Assembly: GCA_947478405.1 (NCBI GenBank) | Contig: CANJVX010000009.1 | Coordinates: 1 to 64,000, forward strand | DNA length: 64,000 bases | Direction: 5' to 3' | Source: Beijerinckiaceae bacterium | GTDB lineage: Bacteria > Pseudomonadota > Alphaproteobacteria > Rhizobiales > Beijerinckiaceae | Part shown: positions 8,172 to 64,000 of the stretch, one piece after another | Layout of the letters: each line of letters begins with the position of its first letter | Position numbering within the stretch: position 1 is the first letter of the stretch | The notes under the pieces: generated by a model | Seen by the model: the letters and a program-made list of their open reading frames with translations, nothing else | Told to the model about the DNA's origin: nothing | The model's database searches: none | Made by a program: the position numbers and the translations under genes

Positions 8172-8606
8172 GTGACCAAACAGCCGAATCCCATTGACCA
8201 GCACGTTGGTAGCCGCGTCCGGGTGCGTCGCGCCGTTTTAGGACTGACGCAGGAAAAGCTCGGGCTTGCGCTGGGACTGACGTTCCAGCAGGTCCAGAAA
8301 TACGAAAAGGGCACGAACCGCATTGGCGCGAGTCGCTTGCAAGCAATCTCCAAAGTGCTCGAAGTTCCGCCCTCTTATTTTTTTGAAGGGGCGACGGAAA
8401 TATTGGGTGACACGCCAGGCTTTGCCGATGGATCCCGAACCTTTGTTCCCGATCTTGTGACTACAGCTGAGGGGCTTGCGCTCAATCGGGCCTTTGCACG
8501 CATTATCGATCCCAAAGTGCGCAAACGCCTCGTGGATCTTGTGATCCAGATTGCGGAAAGCCAAGCTGACGGTATTTCCGATACTGCCACGCAGAGCTCC
8601 GTCTGA
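8172..8606 (+). CDS. XRE-family transcriptional regulator upstream of metK
   Basis: Small DNA-binding protein (144 residues). An XRE/cro helix-turn-helix spans about residues 14-68 ([20 protein letters not shown]... [19 protein letters not shown]), followed by a mostly helical C-terminal tail. I prefer GTG 8172: it gives the family-typical opening [17 protein letters not shown] and has GGAGA 9-13 bases upstream; the longer TTG 8124 start adds an unconserved stretch. Proteins of this type sit directly before metK across rhizobia. Regulation of methionine/SAM genes is an inference from position only. Confidence 0.82.
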
Positions 8607-8751
8607 GCGTTCTTTAAAAAGAACGAAATGTCCCGCCTGGCTTGACCTGACGAACGGCCAATGGCAGAAGATTCAGCGCGTCAATGGCGTTGAATCGAAC
8701 CTTTCTGCATGTCCGGTTCGACTGTTGGTTTCTTGCATATGTCCAGCGGAG
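8607..8751 (+). other. metK 5' leader with two inverted repeats
   Basis: 145-base gap between the XRE gene and metK. It holds GTTCTT/AAGAAC (8609-8614 and 8619-8624, 4-base loop) right after the XRE stop, with no T-run, and a second 7-bp repeat TCGAACC/GGTTCGA (8695-8701 and 8715-8721, 13-base loop) about 30 bases before the metK start. I could not match it to a known SAM riboswitch class by eye. Confidence 0.35.
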
Positions 8752-9945
8752 ATGAGTGTGACCAGACAGAATTATTTGTTCACGAGCGAGTCAGTTTCTG
8801 AAGGTCATCCGGACAAGGTCTGTGACCGCATTTCGGACGAAGTGGTAGACCTCTTTTTTCGTGAGGGTGCCAAAGCTGGCGTGAACCCTTACGACATTCG
8901 TGTTGCCTGTGAGACCCTTGCCACAACCAATCGCGTTGTGATTGCAGGTGAAGTGCGCGGCCCCGTCTTCACGGAAGACACGATCATTCATCTGGCGCGC
9001 CAGGCCATTCGGGACATCGGATACGAGCAGGACGGCTTCCACTGGGAGCGGGCGAAGATCGAAGTGCTGTTGCATGCACAGTCAGTTGATATTGCTCAGG
9101 GTGTTGATTCAGCCAGCAATAAGGATGAAGGCGCAGGCGACCAGGGTATTATGTTTGGTTATGCCTGCCGCGAAACCCCGGAGCTGATGCCAGCACCGGT
9201 CCACTATTCGCACAAGATCCTGCATGCCCTGTCCGAAGCGCGTCGCTCAGGCCTCGAAAAGCATCTGGGCCCTGACGCAAAAAGCCAGGTGACGATTCGC
9301 TACGAAAACGGCAAGCCTGTTGAAGCAACGCAGATTGTTGTCTCGCACCAGCATGTGAAAGAAGATCTCACCTCAAATCAGATTTCTGACATTGTGCGTC
9401 CTTATGTCGAGAAGGCGCTGCCCGCAGGCTGGATCACAAAAAATACACAATGGCATATTAATCCAACCGGCAAGTTTTTCATCGGCGGCCCCGATGGCGA
9501 CACTGGTTTGACTGGGCGCAAGATTATTGTCGACACGTATGGCGGCGCCGCGCCGCATGGCGGCGGTGCTTTCTCTGGTAAGGATCCCACCAAAGTGGAT
9601 CGTTCGGCTGCCTATGCTGCCCGCTATCTTGCCAAGAATATTGTTGCCGCCGGTCTTGCTGATCGCTGCAGCATCCAGCTGTCTTATGCCATTGGCGTTG
9701 CCGAGCCCTTGTCGATCTATGCCGATCTCTATGAGACCGGGAAGGTTGATCCGGCGAAGCTGGAGCAAGTTTTACGTGATGTGATGCGGCTGACGCCACG
9801 TGGCATTCGCGAGCACCTGCAGCTTAACCGTCCGATTTATGCTCGCACATCCGCCTATGGTCATTTTGGCCGCGCGCCGGATGCTGACGGTGGTTTCTCA
9901 TGGGAGAAGACGAATCTCGTCGACGCTCTCAAGAGCCATTTTTGA
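8752..9945 (+). CDS. metK: S-adenosylmethionine synthetase
   Basis: Makes S-adenosylmethionine from methionine and ATP; the methyl donor for TrmB, UbiE and other enzymes in this window. 397 residues with the family landmarks: [20 protein letters not shown] at the N terminus, [12 protein letters not shown] (ATP-binding), and [21 protein letters not shown] (phosphate-binding). The open frame extends back to 8551 but that part lacks similarity. ATG 8752 is reported; GTG 8758 is an equally good start because GGAG (8748-8751) has proper spacing only to the latter. 23 bases separate it from trmB. Confidence 0.96.
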
Positions 9946-11477: not shown

Positions 11478-12782
11478 TCAATCGTTGGATGCCGCCAATT
11501 TCAAGCGGGATGGCGTCATTCCGCGAGCAGCGTCTTGTTCAAGATTAGAAATGAAATCGCGAATGCGCGGCGCAATCTCCGAGCGATAGCGCGAGCCATT
11601 GAAGACACCATAATGGCCAACGCCATTTTGGAGGTAGTGCACTTTGCGGCTCTCGGGAATGTTCACGCATAGTTCCTGCGCGGCATAGGTCTGGCCGACA
11701 CCCGAAATATCGTCTTTTTCACCTTCGACCGTCATCAAGCCAGCCCGACGGATGGCGGTGAGATCGACAGGCTGACCGCGATGCTTCATTTCGCCTTTGG
11801 GTAACGAATGAAGAACAAAAACATTCTCGATCGTCTGCATATAGTAATCTGCAGATAGATCCATCACAGCCATGTACTCATCATAGAATTCGCGATGCTT
11901 CTCGGCAGAATCGCCGTCACCTTTGACGAGATGTTTGAACATGTCGACGTGAGCATTGACATGTCGATCAAGGTTCATGGCCATGAATCCTGACAATTGC
12001 AGGAAGCCTGGATAGACCTTGCGACCAAATCCCGGGTAGGGGAATGGCACGCTGAAGATGCAATTGCGCCGGAACCATTCTGTCCCGCGCTCTTGCGCAA
12101 GTGCGTTGACGGCCGTCGGGCTGCGACGCGTATCGATGGGGCCGCCCATAAGTGTCATGGATGCTGGAGAAAGCGGATTGTTTTCAGCTTCCATCCGCGC
12201 GATAGCTGCAATCAGGGGGACGGACGGCTGGCAGACACCAAGCGTGTGAAGCCCAGCGCCTTGAATATTCGGCCCGAGTGCTTGAAAGATTTCCATCAGA
12301 TAATCGATGTAATCATCCAGATCAAAGGAGCCGGTTGCCAACGGCACCATGCGGGCGTCCGTCCAATCCGTGATGTAAACCTCGTAATGTGGAAGGAAAG
12401 CTTCCACCGTGCCGCGAAGCAGGGTTGCATAGTGTCCTGAAAGCGGCGCCACAATCAGCAGACTGGGCTGTGGTTTGGCCGCCTTTGCGGATCGCGCGAA
12501 ATGGATGACGCGGCAAAATGGTTTTTCCCAGACGACATTCTCTGTGATCTCGACACGTTGCCCATTAAGGCTCGTGGTCTCAAACCCGAAGTTAGGCTTT
12601 CCATAGCGTCGCGTCAGCCGCTCGAATAATTCCGCTGATGCGGCCACATTCCGTCCAAAGGGCGTATGAGCAAATGGGTTGACGGGGCTCTTGAAAAAAA
12701 ACCTTGTCGCATCAGAGACCGCGCGTGCAGGAGCCAGAGCGGCATGGGCCATCTCGTACATGTGATAGGAGTAGCGGTTCAT
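11478..12782 (-). CDS. phaZ: Intracellular polyhydroxyalkanoate depolymerase PhaZ
   Basis: Mobilises stored poly-3-hydroxybutyrate granules. 434 residues; begins MNRYSYHMYEMAHAALAPAR as in rhizobial PhaZ, has the alpha/beta hydrolase core (LLIVAPLSGHYATLLRGTV) and the nucleophile elbow GVCQPS, in which cysteine replaces the serine of a normal lipase box, a hallmark of the intracellular class. C-terminal VGHYGVFNGSRYR carries the catalytic histidine. It implies that the organism makes PHB. No phaC or phasin gene is in the window. It is divergent from regB, with a 202-base shared upstream region. Confidence 0.92.
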   Translation of the reverse strand: MNRYSYHMYEMAHAALAPARAVSDATRFFFKSPVNPFAHTPFGRNVAASAELFERLTRRYGKPNFGFETTSLNGQRVEITENVVWEKPFCRVIHFARSAKAAKPQPSLLIVAPLSGHYATLLRGTVEAFLPHYEVYITDWTDARMVPLATGSFDLDDYIDYLMEIFQALGPNIQGAGLHTLGVCQPSVPLIAAIARMEAENNPLSPASMTLMGGPIDTRRSPTAVNALAQERGTEWFRRNCIFSVPFPYPGFGRKVYPGFLQLSGFMAMNLDRHVNAHVDMFKHLVKGDGDSAEKHREFYDEYMAVMDLSADYYMQTIENVFVLHSLPKGEMKHRGQPVDLTAIRRAGLMTVEGEKDDISGVGQTYAAQELCVNIPESRKVHYLQNGVGHYGVFNGSRYRSEIAPRIRDFISNLEQDAARGMTPSRLKLAASND

Positions 12783-12984
12783 CCTAAAACCTTAGAAACG
12801 AGGAGGGGCGGGCGCAACGTCCTGACGGCGTTCCTTTATGCTCCGAAAAGTCCGTTTGCACCATAAGCGTGTCGGCTTTCCGCGCAAGTGCGCCAAAAGC
12901 ATAATTCATTTTAGGCTGGATCATTTGGTCGCGGTTTCGTGAGCTGGGTAGTCCTGCGGCAGGTTCAGCGCTAGTTTCCTCAGT

Positions 12985-14360
12985 ATGAGAGATCTGGCTG
13001 ACTTGGACCTTGGCGGCCGCGCCCGCCGTCTCAGGGTCGATACAATTTAAGATTACGATGGCTTGCGGTCGCAGGGCAGTCTCTAGCGATCCTCACCACC
13101 TATTGGGCGCTGGGTTTTTCACTTCCACTAGGCCTCTGTTTTCTCGTCATTTCAGCCTCTGCTTGGCTCAATATTGGGCTACGGTTGCGATTTTCGGCCA
13201 GTCACCGCTTGGCCGACCGGCTGGCTCTTCTCCTACTTTGTTATGACGTGTTGCAGCTGTCAGGCCTTTTGTATCTGACGGGGGGCCTTCAAAATCCGTT
13301 TGCCATGTTATTTCTGGCACCCGTGATGATAGCTGCTGTGTCGCTGACCGGGACAGCGACGCTTCTCCTTGGAATGCTGGTCGTGGCAATGGCGAGCCTT
13401 CTCACCATTTTCCACTATCCTTTGCCCTGGCTATTCGGTCAGCCTCTCGCGCTGCCGGTGCTATATGTCGCAGGCATTTGGATTGCCATCGTCCTCGGCA
13501 CGGCCTTCATTGGCATTTATGCAGCGCGTGTGGCTGATGAAGCGCGGCGGCTCTCTGACGCGTTGGCGGCAACAGAACTTGTCCTTGCCCGTGAGCAGCA
13601 TCTCACGCAGCTTGACGGACTAGCCGCCGCTGCTGCTCACGAGCTTGGTACGCCCTTGGCGACGATCACACTCGTGGTCAAGGATTTGGCAAAGCTACTA
13701 CCCAGCGACAGAGAGGCGGCTGCTGATGTCGCCTTGCTCACGCAGGAAGTCCAGCGTTGCCGAACTATTCTCAGCAAGCTTGCGTCGCTGGGTGACGGGG
13801 GCGGCAGCATGTTTGACCGTATGACATTGTTGCACCTCGTTGAGGAAGTAGTCGCACCACAACGTGATTTTGGTGTGATTATAGATATTGAAAAGTCCGG
13901 TGATGGACCTGAGCCTATTTGTGAACGCAATCCAGGCATCCTTTACGGACTTGGTAATCTCGTCGAAAACGCCATCGATTTTGCTATTTCTGATGTCTGC
14001 ATCGTGATCCGTTGGGGGGCCGAACAGGTGCGCTTGACGATTGAGGATGACGGACCAGGATTTACACCAGAAGTTTTGGCGCGCATGGGAGACCCCTATA
14101 TTTCTACCAAAGGTCAGGATAGGCGGGCAAAGTCAGAAGAAGGCGGCCTTGGTCTTGGCCTTTTCATTGCAAAAACTTTACTTGAGAGGTCGGGCGCAAG
14201 CGTCGCTATTTCCAATCGTCCGTTACCTACCACTGGTGCACGCGTCACTGTCGTTTGGCCACGCGATTTTTTCGAGCATACGCAAATAAATGAGGCCTCT
14301 GCTGATGGAAACACCCTGATACAGGCCTATATTCAGGGGAAGGCAAGGACCGAACAATGA
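12985..14360 (+). CDS. regB: Redox sensor histidine kinase RegB/ActS, with apparent -1 frameshift near 13047
   Basis: Membrane kinase that senses aerobic redox state and phosphorylates RegA. The C-terminal frame (from 13053 to 14360) contains the quinone-site loop GGLQNPF, the H-box AHELGTPLATI (His codon 13638), the redox cysteine in QRCRTILSKL (Cys codon 13758), N-box NLVENAIDFA and G-boxes DDGPGF/GGLGLGLF. The N-terminal segment MRDLADLDLGGRARRLRVDTI reads from ATG 12985 but ends at TAA 13048; the continuation LRLRWLAVAGQSLAILTTYW lies in the neighbouring frame. One extra T in the run at 13046-13048 would restore a 458-residue protein. As written, a shortened protein could only begin at TTG 13185. 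The gene is coupled to regA by ATGA. Confidence 0.88.
13045..13050 (+). other. Frameshift site in regB
   Basis: The bases 13042-13050 read ACA ATT TAA in the N-terminal frame, giving a stop. Restoring one T (ATT TTA AGA) joins the N-terminal RVDTI to LRLRWLAVAGQ without loss. The upstream frame is open from 12985 to 13047 and the downstream frame from at least 13053, and both read as RegB. There is no canonical slippery heptamer, so programmed frameshifting is not favoured; a true deletion or an assembly error is more likely. Confidence 0.8.
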
Positions 14361-14932
14361 GCGACAGCACCAAGACGGCGGAAGTAAGTATTGATCTCGC
14401 AGGCATGGAAGATCAGTCCTTGCTTCTTGCGGATGATGACCGGCCTTTTTTGACGCGCCTTACACGTGCAATGGAAAGCCGTGGTTTTCAGGTCACGGCT
14501 GTTGACACGGTGGCTGAGGGCCTTGCGACCATTCGCCGTGTTGCGCCCGCTTTCGCAGTTGTCGATATGCGGCTGGGAGATGGGAACGGGCTCGACATTA
14601 TTTCCGAACTCAAAGCCCTTCGTCCCGATTCACGCGGTATCATTCTCACAGGTTATGGCAATATTGCTACTGCGGTCACGGCTGTGAAGCTTGGCGCTTT
14701 TGACTATTTGGCCAAGCCCGCTGATGCTGATGAAATTTATAATGCCTTGATGGCTCTTCAGCACGACAAGGCTGAGTTACCAGAAAATCCCATGTCGGCT
14801 GATCGTGTGCGGTGGGAACACATTCAGCGCATTTATGAATTGTGTGGCCGCAATGTTTCCGAAACGGCAAGGCGCCTCAATATGCATAGGCGCACGCTCC
14901 AGCGCATTCTCGCTAAGCGCGCGCCGCGCTGA
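14357..14932 (+). CDS. regA: Response regulator RegA/ActR
   Basis: Global redox response regulator, partner of RegB, controlling electron-transport, carbon and nitrogen metabolism genes in alphaproteobacteria. 191 residues: receiver domain about 22-135 with acidic pair LADDDR, phosphoacceptor in VVDMRLGDGNGL, Thr in ILTGYGNIATAV and Lys in LAKPADADEI; a proline-containing linker; and a Fis-type helix-turn-helix at the C terminus (NVSETARRLNMHRRTLQRILAK), nearly invariant in the family. Translationally coupled to regB (ATGA 14357-14360). No senC/prrC or hvrA gene lies beside it. Confidence 0.95.
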   Translation: MSDSTKTAEVSIDLAGMEDQSLLLADDDRPFLTRLTRAMESRGFQVTAVDTVAEGLATIRRVAPAFAVVDMRLGDGNGLDIISELKALRPDSRGIILTGYGNIATAVTAVKLGAFDYLAKPADADEIYNALMALQHDKAELPENPMSADRVRWEHIQRIYELCGRNVSETARRLNMHRRTLQRILAKRAPR

Positions 14933-61327: not shown

Positions 61328-61356
61328 CTGGCCTTATCTTCCCTTTCGTGTATAAG
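61328..61356 (+). promoter_or_regulatory. Possible rpsO promoter
   Basis: TATAAG at 61351-61356 with CTGGCC at 61328-61333, 17-base spacing, in the 177-base gap between truB and rpsO. The -35 element is weak, so confidence is low. Confidence 0.3.
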
Positions 61357-61469
61357 CGCCCCTGTGGAAAGGTCTCCTTTTCACACACTCGCCTATTCGT
61401 GACCGTGCTGGACGACATCCCGGCCCGGCTGCTTGAGCGGGTTTTCCTCTAATCCGAAAGGAAAAGACG

Positions 61470-61739
61470 ATGTCGATCACTGCAGAGCGCAAACAGGCGC
61501 TCATCAAGGACTATGCGACGAAGTCTGGCGACACGGGTTCGCCGGAAGTGCAGGTGGCGATCCTCACGGAACGCATTACGAACCTGACCGAGCATTTCAA
61601 GAGCCACGTGAAGGATAACCATTCTCGTCGTGGTCTTCTGAAGCTCGTTTCGCAGCGTCGCCAGCTTCTCGACTACGTCAAGAAGCACGATGAAGCACGC
61701 TACAAGACGCTCATCGAGCGCCTCGGCATTCGCCGCTAA
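61470..61739 (+). CDS. rpsO: 30S ribosomal protein S15
   Basis: Primary 16S rRNA-binding protein, known to repress its own translation in E. coli. 89 residues, [36 protein letters not shown] and the conserved [42 protein letters not shown] 61470 follows GAAAGGAAAAG. The GC-rich 177-base leader could hold an S15 control structure, but I cannot identify one. Confidence 0.97.
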
Positions 61740-61746
61740 TCTTTGT

Positions 61747-61776
61747 CGGCCGCCGCTCGTTAAAAGGCGGCGGCCG
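61747..61776 (+). repeat. Strong GC hairpin between rpsO and pnp
   Basis: CGGCCGCCG/CGGCGGCCG (61747-61755, 61768-61776) with a 12-base loop, just after the rpsO stop and about 200 bases before pnp. No T-run follows. In E. coli a hairpin in this interval is cut by RNase III and mediates pnp autoregulation; a similar role here is inference. The rest of 61777-61974 shows only an unassigned 42-codon frame. Confidence 0.55.
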
Positions 61777-61974
61777 CAATTGTACGCAAATTGGTGCGCG
61801 TTTCGCGCCGATCCCGAACCGGAGGCATGGGGCTTCCGGATCACGCAGGAAATGGTCGAGCCATGGCAGGATCGCCGGACGCTGTTTTTGAAAGAGTCGA
61901 TGTGACCTCAAAGCAGCTTCTTGCCGTCTTGCTCATGGCCGTTCGCAAATTCCCGCCCATGAAAGACAGACGAC

Positions 61975-64000
61975 ATGTTCGAAATCCATCGTGAAGAACT
62001 CGATTGGGCCGGCCGCAAGCTCGTGCTCGAAACCGGCCGCGTTGCCCGTCAGGCTGACGGCGCCGTTTTGGCCACTTGGGGTGAGACAACTGTTCTCGCA
62101 ACCGTTGTTTCCGCCAAGGCTCCCAAGGCCGGCGTGGACTTCTTCCCCCTCACTGTGAACTATCAAGAAAAGGCTTTCGCAGCTGGCCGCATTCCTGGCG
62201 GTTATTTCAAGCGTGAAGGTCGCCCGTCGGAAAAAGAAACGCTGGTTTCGCGTCTCATTGACCGTCCGATCCGTCCGCTTTTCCCGGAAGGCTATCGCCA
62301 CGACACGCAGGTCGTTGTCACCGTTCTCAGCCACGATCTTGAAAATGATCCGGACGTGCTGTCGATGGTTGCAGCCTCTGCAGCACTCACCATCTCGGGC
62401 ATTCCCTTCATGGGTCCGATTGGCGGCGCGCGCGTCGGCTATATCAAGGGCGAGCTGAAGCTCAACCCGACCATCGATGAAATGAAAGAATCGGCTCTCG
62501 ATCTCGTCGTCGCCGGCACGGTTGACGCCGTGCTCATGGTCGAGTCGGAGGCCAAGGAATTGTCCGAAGCCACCATGCTCGAAGCCGTGATGACCGGTCA
62601 TCGCGGATTCCAGCCCGTGATTGCTGCAATCATTCGCCTGGCTGAAAAAGCTGCGAAGGAACCACGCGATCTCGTCACCATCGACAAGTCGGCTTGCGAG
62701 AAGGCTGTTGCAGAAATCGTCGAAGCTGAACTCCGTCAGGCTTACAAGCACACCGTCAAGCAGCAGCGTTATGCCGCTGTTGACGCGGTGAAGGCGAAGC
62801 TGATGTCAGCGATGTTTCCTGAAGGTCAGGCCGCAAAATTCGATAAGCAGATGGTGGGCGAAGTCTTCCACGACCTGCAGGCGAAGGTTGTTCGCTGGAA
62901 CATTCTCGACACGGGCATTCGTATTGACGGCCGCGATGTGAAGACGGTGCGTCCTATCCTCTCGCAGGTTGGCATTCTGCCGCGCACGCACGGTTCCGCG
63001 CTGTTCACGCGTGGTGAAACGCAGGCGCTGGTTGTTGCCACGCTCGGCACGGGTGAAGACGAGCAGTTCATCGACTCGCTCGAAGGCACCTACAAAGAAC
63101 GCTTCCTGCTGCACTATAACTTCCCTCCCTATTCGGTGGGTGAGACGGGCCGTATGGGTTCACCGGGTCGTCGCGAAATAGGCCATGGAAAGCTCGCTTG
63201 GCGCGCTATTCGTCCGATGCTGCCGACGGCCGCTGAATTCCCCTACACGATCCGCGTCGTGTCGGAGATCACGGAATCGAACGGTTCGTCGTCGATGGCG
63301 ACCGTTTGCGGCGCTTCGCTCTCGCTCATGGATGCGGGCGTTCCGCTGAAAAGCCCGACGGCTGGTATCGCCATGGGCCTTATCCTCGAAGGTGAGCGCT
63401 TTGCGGTTCTCTCCGACATTCTGGGCGATGAAGATCATCTCGGCGATATGGATTTCAAAGTGGCTGGAACGTCGAATGGCGTGACCTCGCTGCAGATGGA
63501 CATCAAGATTGCTGGCATCACTGAAGAAATCATGCGCGTCGCGCTGGATCAGGCGAAGGACGGTCGCCTGCACATTCTCGGTGAGATGAATCTGGCGCTC
63601 TCGGGCGCTCGTTCGGAACTCGGCGAATTTGCTCCGCGCATCGAAACCCTGAAGATCCCGACGGATAAAATCCGCGAAGTGATCGGCACGGGCGGCAAGG
63701 TGATCCGCGAGATCGTCGAAAAGACCGGCGCCAAGATCAACATTGATGATGATGGCACCGTGAAGGTGGCATCCAGCGATGGCGATTCGATCAAGGCTGC
63801 GATCAACTGGATCAAGTCGATTGCGTCCGATCCGGAAGTTGGCCTGATCTACGAAGGCACGGTTGTGAAGACAACAGACTTCGGCGCCTTCGTGAACTTC
63901 TTCGGTGCGAAGGACGGTCTCGTCCATATTTCGCAGCTGTCGAAGCAGCGCGTTGCCAAGACCACGGACGTTGTCAAGGAAGGCGATAAGGTCAAGGTCA
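61975..64000 (+). CDS. pnp: Polyribonucleotide nucleotidyltransferase (PNPase), 3' end outside window
   Basis: Phosphorolytic 3'-5' exoribonuclease of the degradosome type. The frame is open from ATG 61975 to the window end (675 codons). Visible: first RNase PH domain ([45 protein letters not shown]), helical linker, second RNase PH domain with [27 protein letters not shown], the KH domain ([29 protein letters not shown]) and the beginning of the S1 domain ([27 protein letters not shown]). Only the final S1 residues are missing. It closes the operon seen here. Confidence 0.96.

Follow-up and report, generated by a model that had tools for sequence, protein, structure and literature searches.

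In the assembled sequence of a Beijerinckiaceae bacterium, the redox sensor kinase gene regB is broken by a shortfall of one base, and the partner gene regA is intact. The window, a stretch of 64,000 nucleotides, lies on contig C9 of the draft genome G000, which measures 3.03 Mb in 79 contigs at 95.08% completeness. This genome is probably a metagenome assembly, judging from its contig number and from the named relatives whose RegB comes closest, which were metagenome-assembled genomes of Beijerinckiaceae, Hyphomicrobiales and Rhizobiales. The break is real in the sequence yet ordinary. The window would hold a regBA operon of the usual kind for a Beijerinckiaceae-type bacterium, with one base too few in the assembled regB at about codon 22, and we lean towards a residual single-base indel error in the draft as the explanation. 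We infer that the assembly has dropped a base which the organism still has; the living population would then keep an intact six-helix RegB which, by analogy with its family, would sense quinone and the cytosolic redox state and phosphorylate RegA. The features of the region are listed in Table 1.

Table 1. Features of the regBA region (coordinates of the window)
Feature	Position	Strand	Remarks
5' fragment of regB	12985..13050	+	ATG, 21 codons, premature TAA 13048-13050; 20 of 21 residues identical to RegB of G031
Frame-change site at about codon 22, close to where the first predicted membrane helix begins	13046..13052	+	One base short compared with relatives; helix 18-42 in the model of intact G031 RegB
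Remainder of regB in the shifted frame	13050..14360	+	Homologous throughout; frame open from 13002; stop 14358-14360
Longest remaining ORF, TTG start, 391 aa	13185..14360	+	ActS/PrrB/RegB-family kinase without the first 67 residues; NF033792
regA (ActR/PrrA/RegA response regulator), intact	14357..14932	+	NF033791, 314.7 bits (cut-off 250); overlaps the regB stop

The original prediction had described a RegB-like N terminus that opens at ATG 12985 and meets a TAA at 13048, followed in the next frame by the expected continuation without any start before TTG 13185, and both parts agreed with the ORF listing and with the alignment to the intact RegB of genome G031. The 21 sense codons from ATG 12985-12987 read MRDLADLDLGGRARRLRVDTI and are ended by the TAA. 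When the two frames were aligned to the G031 protein with one junction, 20 of 21 residues were identical 5' of the break and 26 of 30 just 3' of it, and since the two frames meet at a single point, the break is not a product of chance. The downstream frame was open for 61 codons upstream of TTG 13185, with no ATG, GTG or TTG among them, and no further stop was found in the downstream ORF. The restored protein of 458 residues was also correct in its arithmetic (67 + 391).

The proposal that one T is missing from the run at 13046-13048 stood only in part: the gene is one base short there, but the T run is not singled out by the relatives. At the affected codon, 41 of the 79 named relatives readable across the site carried Val, 28 carried Leu and the remaining ten another residue (4 Ile, 3 Thr, 2 Ser and 1 Ala), and the six best-ranked of them (L037-L042) all carried Val. 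Because the residue differs among relatives, the missing base cannot be named from the sequence, and a slipped T run may be regarded as one possibility only. The run at the break is only three bases long, and there is no long homopolymer at this place.

The broken gene is a true ActS/PrrB/RegB kinase. The 391-aa ORF scored 511.3 bits on the equivalog model NF033792 (cut-off 350), and the Pfam domain HATPase_c was found with 63.8 bits (cut-off 26.4); HisKA (24.7, cut-off 26.9) and 6TM_PilS (23.7, cut-off 27) were slightly under their thresholds, likewise in the intact protein of G031. The later signature residues, said to be intact, were all recovered. The quinone-site loop GGxxNPF is kept as GGLQNPF at window position 13281, from residue 100, with the columns G100, G101, N104, P105 and F106 invariant in an alignment of 19 sequences, and the downstream ORF keeps HELGTP (13638), the cysteine motif RCR (13755), NAI (13968) and GLGLGL (14145). 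The intact state of regA was likewise confirmed, with 94% identity to the RegA of G031. No second regB was found in G000, in which the six other matches were all at E 4.9e-9 or weaker. What the window regB lacks is an unbroken six-helix membrane domain in one frame: in the protein model of G031 RegB, of moderate quality (mean pLDDT 69.0), the first two helices comprise residues 18-42 and 49-69, which lie across or after the break and, except for the last residues, ahead of the first start codon. In the interval 12780-13200 no promoter-like site was detected, and one terminator-like site was detected at 12816 against 0.7 expected. Rfam gave no match in the window at the gathering threshold.

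Comparison with related genomes had been recommended as a check, and the RegB loci of 80 named relatives were used for this; one of them (L063) begins after the site at a contig end, which left 79 readable. All 79 were unbroken and in frame through the break site, with a start codon further upstream, and by this sequence comparison the lesion is a singleton among the readable named relatives. A related intact gene starting at 13185, which would have argued against loss of function, was not seen among them. Assuming a gapless stretch from each match start to the codon that corresponds to TTG 13185, ATG, GTG or TTG was present there in 7 of the 79 relatives (4 TTG, 2 ATG and 1 GTG), so this TTG is no inherited start, and it was rejected as the natural start of the gene on account of the upstream starts of the 79 in-frame relatives. 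Another reading is a short but functional RegB that starts at TTG 13185 or elsewhere inside the gene, has four membrane helices and senses redox differently; by the same count, TTG 13185 would be an unconserved start for it. The quinone loop, the H box, the cysteine and the ATP-binding boxes are all retained in the ORF, whose NF033792 score still exceeds the cut-off, and the dropping of two whole helices (18-42 and 49-69) would preserve the parity of the topology in the model; however, no Shine-Dalgarno-like sequence was seen by eye ahead of TTG 13185, the codon sits 134 bases from the stop, which is far for simple coupling, and the 65 upstream codons are constrained like the core, which is unexpected if they had long been untranslated. 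We consider such a short sensor highly unlikely. The loss of exactly 67 residues, as originally predicted, presumes that translation restarts at TTG 13185.

The classical slippery heptamer has the form XXXYYYZ. The bases ahead of the regB stop, inspected by eye, form no such heptamer in frame, and the short T run at the site, which might invite programmed frameshifting or transcriptional slippage that restores the regB frame, is just three bases long. As none of the 79 readable relatives changes frame at this site, recoding is judged extremely unlikely.

The selection on regB was then compared on the two sides of the break. Between the window and G031, dN was 0.067 and dS 1.53 over the 65 compared codons before residue 68, and dN was 0.096 over the 365-codon core, where dS was saturated and not estimable. 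Measured to the more distant G002, the N-terminal and core dN values were 0.130 and 0.185 for the window, 0.150 and 0.174 for G031, and 0.097 and 0.163 for G019; the core value of the window is the highest of the three by little, which we take as ordinary scatter. By these results neither part of the gene shows clear decay, and therefore any true mutation would be very young. A long-standing pseudogene was rejected, as constraint was not relaxed in the N-terminal part or in the core and no additional stop was present.

A survey of frameshifts was carried out by frameshift-aware alignment of about 0.83 Mb of G000 and 1.19 Mb of G031, covering ORFs of up to 900 residues and matches of at least 60% identity. 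In the G000 direction it comprised 455 gene comparisons with 145,965 aligned residues and a mean identity of 87%. Before filtering, 85 of the 455 comparisons in G000 were flagged, as were 83 of the 462 made in reverse; the flank filter left 25 and 21 events, respectively, in 18 ORFs each. The 18 ORFs of G000 were sorted by judgement into two clear one-base losses in conserved genes (regB and ccr), six upstream extensions of a true start, seven spurious ORFs that overlap with a longer ORF of better score, one ORF opposite a 291-codon ORF of G000, and two left unclassed (C2:100045-100791 and C9:61332-62033). For the latter, at window positions 61332-62033, a 152-codon ORF of G031 aligned through a -1 and a +1 frame change; the ORF may be spurious, or the frame may be shifted locally. 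The only ccr found in G000 lies outside the window (G000:C1:53924-55197) and is read in two frames with a one-base shortfall by a short single-base run; in G031 the gene is unsplit in one frame, and its protein, crotonyl-CoA carboxylase/reductase, scored 610.9 bits on TIGR01751. In the reverse direction, which was sorted partially, 5 of 18 ORFs were overlapped by a longer, better-scoring ORF. The query C2:13729-14697 could mark a break in G031, a genome in which one or two breaks are possible. Separately, outside the flank filter, a frame change at about 362290-362309 of G031:C3 was observed in the match to G000:C9:76482-78296, a possible lesion of G031.

Two further observations were made on these genomes. 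The longest metK ORF (window 8551-9945) begins well before the region that is conserved with G031, and since its 5' part can be aligned only through a frame change, the true metK start is probably further in. No rpoB match (TIGR02013) was found in G000 or G031, each about 95% complete, perhaps owing to an assembly gap in both.

A residual error is favoured because the regB and ccr breaks both fall in single-copy, well-conserved genes of one assembly and regB is undecayed. Two clear lesions in 455 comparisons are a low rate, so G000 is not error-ridden and a real recent mutation fits too; this rate could arise equally from residual errors or young mutations and cannot separate error from young pseudogenes. 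A genuine and very recent frameshift, fixed or present as a strain variant in the consensus, would inactivate RegB or leave, at best, a kinase that is translated poorly and lacks the first two membrane helices, and RegA would then work unphosphorylated or through other kinases. We regard this as possible, though less probable than an error. The break itself is unambiguous in the sequence, and activity of RegA without its kinase in Rhodobacter capsulatus (PMC9147068) and norC control without RegS in Bradyrhizobium japonicum (PMC4064962), as given in the available text of these papers, would agree with such a mutation; against it, selection on regB showed no relaxation. Of the two alternatives in the original prediction, disruption or assembly error, the one-base shortfall that breaks regB in the sequence held up, while altered redox control was not supported over an error, given the lack of decay and the similar lesion in ccr.

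The distribution of regBA also bears on a recent mutation. A RegA match at E<=1e-30 was present in 54 of the 61 genomes searched. None was found at this threshold in G006, G018, G021 and G023, which belong to the same genus, and their RegB matches were only weak (3.8e-7 to 7.3e-12). These four genomes measure 2.6-2.8 Mb with completeness of 82, 96, 92 and 76%, respectively, two of them thus exceeding 90%. With four members of the genus lacking a strong match to either gene, the pair can probably be lost, and its loss in the window is plausible if the lesion is real. However, these genomes were not the nearest kin of the window in the metK tree (G006 and G018) or the recA tree (G021 and G023), and hence decay shared with them was unsupported. 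That a real lesion with a four-helix RegB from an internal start and changed quinone sensing represents a step in a stepwise loss of RegBA, a loss that seems complete in some members of the genus with small genomes, is considered very unlikely. In other genomes, one in-frame TGA each was observed in the RegB matches of the more distant G041 (C1:320607-321707) and G056 (C9:152309-153445), where a gene end or a lesion is possible; in the match of G026 the two TGA codons come after the end of the conserved part, up to which this locus is free of stops.

Photosynthesis genes are a classical target of RegA. G000 gave neither a Photo_RC match nor a strong NifH-like one; G031 has both, and we take its NifH-like match to be BchL/BchX. 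Both flanks of the photosynthesis gene cluster of G031 end within 170 bases of contig ends of G000 (C31:164 and C38:119), so the missing reaction-centre genes prove no loss and an assembly hole is as likely. Loss of phototrophy as a cause of regB decay was dropped for this reason. RuBisCO, searched as a further RegA target, had no match in 8 genomes.

If the lesion is real and translation restarts at TTG 13185, helices 18-42 and 49-69 of the model would be lost, and the quinone loop, His, Cys and ATP boxes would stay. A real lesion would mean that a global redox sensor was lost naturally and recently while its regulator stayed intact, and would offer a view of RegA acting alone in a wild population. 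At present the regB case is chiefly a warning against drawing physiological conclusions from single-base breaks in draft genomes without the reads.

Compared with known ActS/PrrB/RegB and ActR/PrrA/RegA systems, both window genes scored above the cut-offs of NF033792 and NF033791, and the window shares the GGxxNPF loop, HELGTP, the conserved cysteine, the ATP boxes and a regA directly after regB. It differs in that its regB is one base short at about codon 22, with the first 21 codons in another frame. On the model of Rhodobacter-type RegB (NF045988, cut-off 570), the window ORF scored 363.7 and the intact protein of G031 423.5, both below the cut-off. In the available text on R. capsulatus, RegB has six membrane helices, a quinone site and the redox cysteine Cys265 (PMC9147068, PMC5506826), and about 47 genes are under aerobic RegA regulation (PMC9147068). 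The regS deletion mutant of Bradyrhizobium (PMC4064962) resembles the window as an orthologous system with the sensor gone and the regulator present, although it is an engineered deletion, whereas the window carries a one-base change that is putative in the organism. In the consulted part of that paper, RegR controls norC independently of the sensor RegS in Bradyrhizobium (B. japonicum), so the effect of a real regB lesion could be mild, and by this analogy sensor loss need not silence RegA. Finally, in the excerpt at hand of the GeneTack study (PMC3711429), the authors expect singleton frameshifts validated by homology to stem from sequencing errors and not from genuine indels. The regB break of the window is confirmed by homologues and shared by none of the 79 readable named relatives; on the points given in that excerpt no difference from the singleton class was seen, and the break fits the class which its authors expect to consist of sequencing errors.
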